Of a DNA stretch of 64,000 nucleotides, positions 46,991 to 49,646 are shown one piece after another (position 1 is the first letter of the stretch; each line of letters starts with the position of its first letter). The notes below the pieces were generated by a model that did no database searches, had not been told where the DNA came from, and worked only from the letters and a program-made list of their open reading frames with translations. The position numbers were made by a program, and so were the translations under genes. The DNA is from Gemmatimonadaceae bacterium. Its GTDB lineage: Bacteria > Gemmatimonadota > Gemmatimonadetes > Gemmatimonadales > Gemmatimonadaceae. The stretch is taken from contig JADLCY010000005.1 in assembly GCA_020846935.1 (NCBI GenBank), positions 1-64,000 of the forward strand. Direction: 5' to 3'.

Positions 46991-48073
46991 ATGAGCTGGC
47001 TGGCGGAGGGGGTACGGCGGCTATCGCCGGCCTACTTCGCCCTGGTGATGGCCACCGGCATCGTCTCTCTGGCCTCGATGCGCGCGGGCTTCCGGCTGAT
47101 CGCCGTTGCCCTCTTGTGGCTGAACGTCGCGCAGTACGTCATCCTGGTCGTGCTGTTTGCCGTTCGTGCGGCGCAGTACACGCGCGCGTTCACCGCTGAC
47201 CTCCGCGATCACCGCGCCGCACCAGGATTCCTCACCGCGGTTGCCGGAACCTGTGTGCTGGGGAATCAGTTCATCCTGATCGTTGGCTGGTCCGGCGTGG
47301 CGCAGGGTCTGTGGGTGGCCGGCATGCTGCTCTGGATCATCCTGACGTACGTCATCTTCACCAATCTCACCATCAAGGAGCACAAGCCATCCATTCAGGA
47401 CGGCATAACGGGCGGTTGGCTCCTTGCCGTCGTCGCATCCCAGGCCATCGCGGTACTCAGTGCGCTGCTGTCACGGCAGTTCGAGCAGCCCGACCGCTTG
47501 TACGTCAACTTCCTCGCCCTCTCCATGTGGCTCTGGGGCGGGATGATGTACATCTGGATGATCTCGCTGATTTTCTACCGATACACGTTCTTTCCGTTCT
47601 CGCCGGGCGATCTGTCGCCGCCGTACTGGATCAACATGGGCGCCATGGCGATTTCCACGCTGGCGGGATCTCTGCTCGTGGAGAACGCGGATGACGCCTG
47701 GTTCCTCCGGTCGCTGCTCCCGTTCCTCAAGGGGTTCACCGTGTTCTTCTGGGCGACCGGTACCTGGTGGATCCCGATGCTCGCGATCCTGGCGGTCTGG
47801 CGTCACTGGTGGAAGCGGTTTCCCCTCACCTACGATCCGCTCTACTGGGGCGCCGTCTTTCCCCTGGGCATGTACGCGGTGGCCACCTTCCAGATGGCTC
47901 GATCAATGAACCTGGACTTCCTGTTGCCAGTGCCGCGCGTGTTTGTCTTTGTCGCACTGATGGCCTGGGCCGCGACATTCTGGGGCATGATCAGGCATAT
48001 GCTCGTGACGGCACGGCGTGATGGTCGATCGCCGACAGCCGGGATCGCCGCATCTCAGGAGGGCCACGCCTGA
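46991..48073 (+). CDS. TDT/SLAC1-family anion channel or exporter, last gene of the nar operon
   Basis: This 360-residue membrane protein has about ten hydrophobic helices in the pattern of the tellurite-resistance/dicarboxylate transporter (TDT) family, which includes TehA, Mae1, the sulfite exporter SSU1 and the plant anion channel SLAC1. It opens with LSPAYFALVMATGIVSLAS, the family's conserved first helix with FALVMATGI. Plant relatives pass nitrate and chloride, so a nitrate-uptake or nitrite-export role is plausible here (inference). It follows narI by 142 bases on the same strand. ATG 46991 starts directly before the first amphipathic stretch. Confidence 0.85.
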   Translation: MSWLAEGVRRLSPAYFALVMATGIVSLASMRAGFRLIAVALLWLNVAQYVILVVLFAVRAAQYTRAFTADLRDHRAAPGFLTAVAGTCVLGNQFILIVGWSGVAQGLWVAGMLLWIILTYVIFTNLTIKEHKPSIQDGITGGWLLAVVASQAIAVLSALLSRQFEQPDRLYVNFLALSMWLWGGMMYIWMISLIFYRYTFFPFSPGDLSPPYWINMGAMAISTLAGSLLVENADDAWFLRSLLPFLKGFTVFFWATGTWWIPMLAILAVWRHWWKRFPLTYDPLYWGAVFPLGMYAVATFQMARSMNLDFLLPVPRVFVFVALMAWAATFWGMIRHMLVTARRDGRSPTAGIAASQEGHA

Positions 48074-48231: not shown

Positions 48232-48468
48232 ATGCGCATAACGATCGAATACTGCACAATGTGAAACTACGAACCCCGGGCGGTCAGTCTGGCTGCCGAG
48301 GTTCGTCAGGCCTTTCCAGACGCCGAGGTGGATCTGGTTGCGTCGGGAGGAGGTCGCTTCGAGGTCCTTCGCGACGGCCAACCAGTCTTCGAAAAGTCCC
48401 GGCTGCGCCGGCACGCCACGCCTGGGGAGGTGGTGCGCTTGCTCCGGGCAGCCGACACTCCTCCCTGA
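48232..48468 (+). CDS. SelW/Rdx-family selenoprotein with Cys-x-x-Sec motif (in-frame UGA)
   Basis: Read through the in-frame TGA at 48262-48264, the 78-residue product starts MRITIEYCTMUNYEPRA (U = selenocysteine 11) and continues with SLAAEVRQAFPDAEVDLVAS, GGGRFEVLRDGQPVFEKS and a PGEVVRLLRAA end. This is the thioredoxin-like Rdx fold (SelW/SelT/SelH): beta strand, redox loop, helix, then the GGGxFEVxxDGxxVFxK signature. Relatives carry CxxC or CxxU at exactly this place. The real stop is TGA 48466-48468. A hairpin follows the UGA (see next entry). Selenoprotein W relatives are small thiol redox proteins. Gene callers that treat TGA as stop miss it. The selA, selB, selC and selD genes are not in the window. 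Confidence 0.8.
48269..48306 (+). promoter_or_regulatory. Predicted bacterial SECIS element in the selenoprotein gene
   Basis: Beginning five bases after the UGA, outer arms ACGAACC (48269-48275) and GGTTCGT (48300-48306) pair over 7 bp. Inner arms GGCGGTC (48279-48285) and GGCTGCC (48291-48297) pair over another 7 bp including two G-U pairs. A small internal loop separates them. The apical loop AGTCT (48286-48290) has G at its second position, and the distance from UGA to loop is 21 bases. These match the published bacterial SECIS rules as I recall them; the loop also resembles that of E. coli fdhF. SelB would bind it. Confidence 0.7.
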
Positions 48469-48566: not shown

Positions 48567-49646
48567 ATGAAGATTGCGATCTCCACCGGTGGCGGTGACG
48601 CGCCGGGTCTGAATGCCGTCATCCGCGCCGCCGTGCTCTCGGCCACGAGTCGGGGCTGGGACGTCCTCGGCATCTGTCGCGGGTACTTCGGGCTCCTTGG
48701 CGAAGACGAGATTCTCACGCTCACGCGCGATTCGGTGCGGGGCATCGGGCACCTCGGCGGCACCATTCTGCGCACCACGAATCGCGGCAACCCGTTCGCC
48801 TTTCCGGTTGCTCAGCCGGATGGGACGTTTCGGGAGGTCGATCGGTCGCACGAGATCCTGGCCAACATCAAACGACTTGGCATCGACGCCATCGTCACGA
48901 TCGGGGGCGACGGTTCGCTCAGGATCGCGCAGCAGCTGCACGACCTGGGCGTGAAGATCGTGGGCGTGCCCAAGACGATCGACAACGACGTGAGCGGCAC
49001 CATCACCACGTTTGGTTTTGATACGGCCGTGAGCACGGCGATCGAGGCGCTGGACAAGCTGCACACGACCGCGGAGAGCCATGAGCGCGTGCTCGTGATG
49101 GAGGTGATGGGTCGCCACGCGGGCTTCATCGCGCTGCACGCCGGCGTTGCGGCATCCGCGGACGTGATCCTCATCCCGGAGATTCCCTACGACATCGAGG
49201 CCGTGTGCGAAAAGGTGCGTGCGCGGGATCGCGCGGGCCGGCATTTCTCGATCGTGGTGGTGGCCGAGGGCGCGACGCAGGCCGGCGGAGAGCAGTCGGT
49301 GATCGGCGAATCACTGCCGGGCCAGGACAAACGTGTGGGTGGCATTGCCGGTCGACTGGCCTGGGAGATCCAGGCACGCACGGGCAAGGAGGCGCGCTCG
49401 CTCGTGCTGGGGCACCTCCAGCGCGGCGGCTCGCCGACGGGCTACGATCGGTTGCTCGCGACGAGGTTCGGCGGGGCGGCGATCGAGGCGGTGGAACAGG
49501 GGAAGTGGGGCGAAATGGTCGCGCTGCAATCACCACATATCGTCACGGTCCCTATCAGCGAGGCGCTGCGCGAGCCCAAGCGCGTGGATCCATCGCACGA
49601 CGTCGTTCGCACGGCGAGGGCGGCGGGGATCTCCTTCGGCGACTAG
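48567..49646 (+). CDS. pfkA: 6-phosphofructokinase (group III / mixed-substrate type)
   Basis: This 359-residue enzyme phosphorylates fructose 6-phosphate, committing sugar to glycolysis. Motifs: STGGGDAPGLNAVIR at the N-terminus, GGDG (113-116), catalytic PKTIDND (135-141) and MGRHAGFIA. The Gly of GGDG fits ATP users, whereas Lys136 of PKTIDND is found in pyrophosphate-dependent and group III enzymes; the combination is the known group III pattern and most such enzymes use ATP. ATG 48567 starts exactly at the conserved MKIAISTGGG; upstream sequence in frame is not protein-like. It stands alone, 98 bases after the selenoprotein gene. Confidence 0.93.
   Translation: MKIAISTGGGDAPGLNAVIRAAVLSATSRGWDVLGICRGYFGLLGEDEILTLTRDSVRGIGHLGGTILRTTNRGNPFAFPVAQPDGTFREVDRSHEILANIKRLGIDAIVTIGGDGSLRIAQQLHDLGVKIVGVPKTIDNDVSGTITTFGFDTAVSTAIEALDKLHTTAESHERVLVMEVMGRHAGFIALHAGVAASADVILIPEIPYDIEAVCEKVRARDRAGRHFSIVVVAEGATQAGGEQSVIGESLPGQDKRVGGIAGRLAWEIQARTGKEARSLVLGHLQRGGSPTGYDRLLATRFGGAAIEAVEQGKWGEMVALQSPHIVTVPISEALREPKRVDPSHDVVRTARAAGISFGD

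Follow-up and report, generated by a model that had tools for sequence, protein, structure and literature searches.

A SelW-like Gene with an In-Frame TGA

The window analyzed here, a 64,000-nucleotide stretch of a Gemmatimonadaceae contig (JADLCY010000005.1), contains an ATG-initiated reading frame at positions 48232–48468 of the forward strand that is interrupted by a TGA at codon 11 (48262–48264). Does the gene end there, or is this TGA read as an amino acid? An earlier note, made from the letters of the window, had described a hidden SelW/Rdx-like gene with a CxxU motif at this place and had proposed that the TGA specifies selenocysteine (Sec). Translation confirmed its description of the frame: the TGA is followed by 67 codons with features of the Rdx family, and then by a TGA terminator at 48466–48468. 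With the internal TGA translated as U, the product has 78 residues and opens with MRITIEYCTMUNYEPRA...GGGRFEVLRDGQPVFEK...; the CxxU motif (Cys8-Thr-Met-Sec11) lies near the N-terminus, just past the first strand (residues 2–8). No clear Shine–Dalgarno sequence was found upstream of the start codon. Ordinary gene calling would miss such a gene, which is easily overlooked, and overlooked SelW genes have been reported before (PMC4607533).

We conclude that 48232–48468 is almost certainly a genuine SelW-like selenoprotein gene, here called rdx, and that its in-frame TGA encodes Sec. Every test proposed in the earlier note that could be run supported this assignment. The reading that we favor as a whole is that of an Rdx (SelW-like) thiol oxidoreductase with Sec as its second active-site residue, its UGA decoded through a hairpin and SelB, and its gene adjacent to pfk; judged from sequence data, we put its probability at about 97%.

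Family and Predicted Fold

Family searches were run with Cys substituted for Sec. Residues 2–72 matched Pfam Rdx (PF10262) with an E-value of 1.8e-18 (66.9 bits against a cut-off of 22.6), and the product also scored above the cut-offs of NCBIfam TIGR02174 (55.2 vs. 34.2 bits) and NF041051, “SelT/SelW/SelH family (seleno)protein” (91.9 vs. 88 bits). Solved SelW-related proteins were matched by sequence search as well. The AlphaFold2 model (pLDDT 93.4) displayed a thioredoxin-like Rdx fold, for which Foldseek returned 2fa8, 2ojl, 2obk and 3dex at TM-scores of 0.83–0.89; mouse SelW was also among the matches. The top match was the SelW-related protein of Agrobacterium (2fa8, TM 0.89, 39% identity). 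While this protein and other CxxC Rdx proteins have the fold in common with the rdx product, the alignment places a Cys in 2fa8 where the rdx product has Sec. The Cys–Sec pair would form a selenenylsulfide/thiol redox center, and the most likely role of the protein is that of a general glutathione- or thioredoxin-linked reductase.

Bacterial SelW-like CxxU selenoproteins have been described from epsilonproteobacteria, Geobacter, Desulfotalea and marine metagenomes (PMC1794560, PMC1088965, PMC2398784, PMC4607533). They have in common with rdx the family PF10262, the CxxU motif, a Sec form that is commoner than the Cys form, a SECIS element directly past the UGA and, often, the lack of annotation. 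SelW-like proteins were the most abundant selenoproteins in the Sargasso Sea set (PMC1088965) and again in the Global Ocean Sampling data, with 427 Sec and 56 Cys forms (PMC2398784); few Cys homologues were found in Sec-using organisms (PMC1794560), and a 2026 review lists SelW-like proteins as a high-confidence prediction (PMC13188914). Since the family is already known and abundant in bacteria, rdx is a further member of it rather than a new family. The Gemmatimonadota went unmentioned in the SelW papers that we searched for the name of the phylum, and a literature search combining Gemmatimonadota and selenocysteine gave no title that appears to concern rdx. With the present data, the range of SelW-like selenoproteins extends to this phylum, where Sec is commonly used.

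Sec Machinery and Conservation of the TGA

The earlier note had suggested searching for selA, selB, selD and tRNA-Sec, and all four are present in the genome (4.5 Mb in 15 contigs). The scores were 536 bits for selA, 358.9 bits for selB (619 aa) and 370.3 bits for selD; the tRNA-Sec (70.2 bits) has the anticodon TCA and adjoins selD. The UGA at codon 11 would be decoded by this Sec-tRNA(UCA), brought to the ribosome by SelB. The presence of such a tRNA together with complete SelA/SelB/SelD argues against readthrough with another amino acid, for example Trp, whether through near-cognate suppression or through an altered genetic code. Homologues carry Cys at this position, not Trp, and TGA is in use as an ordinary stop, including as the terminator of rdx itself; we consider this kind of readthrough extremely improbable. 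The selD gene (L018, G000:C13:10109-11029) is itself a selenoprotein gene, with an in-frame TGA in its CAGU active-site motif.

A homologue of rdx was found in 150 of the 298 Gemmatimonadota genomes searched. An in-frame TGA was present in 147 of these, including the genome of the window, and two homologues (in genomes G128 and G051) had no stop; the match in the last genome (G099) was weak and was not displayed. When 70 loci were extracted, the TGA fell exactly at codon 11 in 68, and the two stop-free genes had TGC. The comparison with relatives suggested in the earlier note showed TGA or Cys at this position, not random codons. Two of the Sec-type genes, L055 (G025:C3) and L070 (G013:C1), look broken after the TGA by a frameshift or an internal deletion.

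The gene for selA scored above the cut-off in 220 of the 298 genomes, and both genomes with the Cys form lack it. Among genomes with the Sec form, with G099 counted as Sec, selA was found in 143 and missing in five, whereas the remaining genomes were divided between 83 with selA and 67 without. The four genomes that displayed a TGA but gave no selA match are draft assemblies with a completeness of 85–96%. The association between the Sec form and selA has an odds ratio of 23 and a Fisher P of 1.6e-18, which overstates the independence of the data because the genomes are related; the pattern is nevertheless the one that the earlier note had named as decisive. The relatives that lack Sec machinery, and have either no rdx or the Cys form, provide a clean natural comparison.

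One base change is enough to turn a Cys codon (TGC or TGT) into TGA, and rdx might accordingly be imagined as a pseudogene left when such a mutation broke an ancestral Rdx gene with a CxxC motif. This explanation is already refuted by the conservation of the TGA throughout the phylum: the 147 genomes with an in-frame TGA belong to several families, and the same codon is affected in all 68 aligned Sec-type loci. The sequence after the TGA is under purifying selection, with a median dN/dS of 0.34, about the same as before it (0.38), the hairpin described below is conserved, and Cys forms are confined to genomes without selA. We give the pseudogene essentially no chance, and retain the reading of the TGA as Sec.

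A SECIS-like Hairpin

Just past the UGA, positions 48279–48297 of the forward strand can form a SECIS-like hairpin with a 7-bp stem (48279–48285 paired with 48291–48297) and the loop AGTCT (48286–48290; AGUCU in the RNA), which would recruit SelB. In the single sequence of the window, the hairpin is modestly beyond chance (z = −2.0, with 8% of synonymous recodings folding as well), and its strength comes from the alignment. In the 68 aligned Sec-type sequences, the stem was paired in 94.3% of cells, while sliding the stem partner as a control cut the pairing to at most 60.1%. Covariation was evident from 30 cells in which both sides had changed, compared to 7.5 in shuffles.

Counted from the U of the UGA as +1, the apical loop spans +25 to +29, and the G at +26 is invariant in the 68 sequences. 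Most of the loop is formed by codon 19, for which only AGT, GGT, AGG and GGG were seen; its synonymous bias of 3.95 bits is far above that of any other codon. Synonymous codon choice would be expected to give the loop motif RGKYU in 7.8 of 65 genes, yet all 65 have it, and 64 of the 65 hairpins folded better than the mean of their own synonymous recodings. The Cys homologue of G128 is without the motif and has GCGTT in its place.

The SECIS element of the E. coli fdhF type, recognized by SelB, has a small apical loop with GU about 20–25 nt after the UGA. The rdx hairpin has a similar small, GU-bearing apical loop, which is GGUCU in many homologues, but its stem sequence differs, and it is a putative SelB site. 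It also agrees with the bacterial SECIS definition used by bSECISearch, a hairpin just past the UGA whose small loop has a G among its first two bases; the loop guanosine is stated in PMC1088965.

Outside the phylum, in records labelled Acidobacteria, Desulfocapsa, Poribacteria, Chloroflexi and others, the loops were mostly GGTCT, AGTTT, AGTCT and CGTGC, in a set that includes some Gemmatimonadota and that came from a DNA search pattern leaving the loop region unconstrained. Because this pattern requires a TGA, the scan is silent on the frequency of Cys forms. SelW-like Sec genes labelled Alphaproteobacteria had a CGTGC-like class of loop, as opposed to GGTCT or AGTTT elsewhere (L107, L110, L120, L128, L129, L131, L147, L151, L165); the label of L147, Rhizobium sp., may stem from a binning error.

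A SECIS covariance model run over the whole genome detected only rdx, and no other selenoprotein gene, above noise, the model being too family-specific to recover even selD. The region past the TGA of selD folds, and the RGKYU loop was not found at the same place in it.

Gene Neighborhood

The earlier note had placed the gene directly after the nar operon and had suggested a link to nitrate respiration. In the window, narH and narI do lie upstream, but the gene for a SLAC1-type anion transporter (46991–48073, forward strand; Pfam SLAC1, 1.7e-51) intervenes between narI and rdx, and nar is not a conserved neighbor. Tblastn searches with NarI and SLAC1 gave zero matches in the flanks of rdx in relatives (roughly 1–8 kb), and we rejected the nitrate connection. 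What relatives have near rdx instead is pfk, which encodes 6-phosphofructokinase and is found at 48567–49646 on the forward strand of the window (Pfam PFK, 2.6e-101; TIGR02483 PFK_mixed above its cut-off). In 52 of the 70 loci, pfk immediately follows rdx on the same strand, nearly all of them in the order seen in the window. Going by gene order, the conserved partner of rdx is phosphofructokinase, not nitrate respiration.

In most Gemmatimonadales loci examined, rdx stands directly before pfk, and the two probably form one transcription unit. Most of the more distantly related families of the phylum did not show the pairing, and neither did the other phyla that were sampled. A conserved phosphofructokinase neighbor distinguishes rdx from the known bacterial SelW-like selenoproteins, and our literature search found no paper joining SelW and phosphofructokinase in bacteria, or describing the pairing in the Gemmatimonadales, where it may reflect a functional link. 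The arrangement offers a directly testable genomic hint at the possible partners of a bacterial SelW-like protein.

One possible link is translational. The decoding of codon 11 as Sec could, in addition to yielding a redox protein, gate the translation of pfk: at low selenium, the UGA would act as a stop, the rest of rdx would go untranslated, and the output of a coupled pfk would fall. The rdx–pfk gap is at most 4 nt in 24 loci, and start and stop overlap by 4 nt in 12, as might be expected of coupled genes. Among 19 selA-lacking genomes in which the pfk locus was read, 18 had nothing Rdx-like upstream of pfk and G128 had the Cys form; however, the 18 had been picked for having no Rdx match and therefore show absence from the pfk site, and not how often the gene has been lost. 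Six genomes with selA also have pfk without rdx. In the genome of the window, the gap is 98 nt, which makes tight coupling unlikely there. A translationally coupled rdx–pfk operon in the Gemmatimonadales, with Pfk output set by selenium-dependent UGA decoding, is in our estimate a long shot; if it existed, it would link glycolytic flux to the selenium or redox state of the cell.

The conserved adjacency could also mean that the Rdx selenoprotein acts on Pfk as a redox partner, with a Pfk cysteine as substrate. The only widely conserved cysteine of Pfk (214), however, is equally present with and without rdx. Cysteines 125 and 133 are commoner where rdx is present, but inconsistently so, and the Pfk of the window's genome has neither. 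As the conserved cysteines do not clearly track the presence of rdx, we rejected Pfk as the redox target, a role that appears slightly more doubtful still than gating by selenium. The general reductase proposed above, encoded next to pfk, remains our preferred reading. A mechanical call of open reading frames would place the start of pfk at position 48261, on a GTG that lies within rdx in another frame, while the conserved start is the ATG at 48567.
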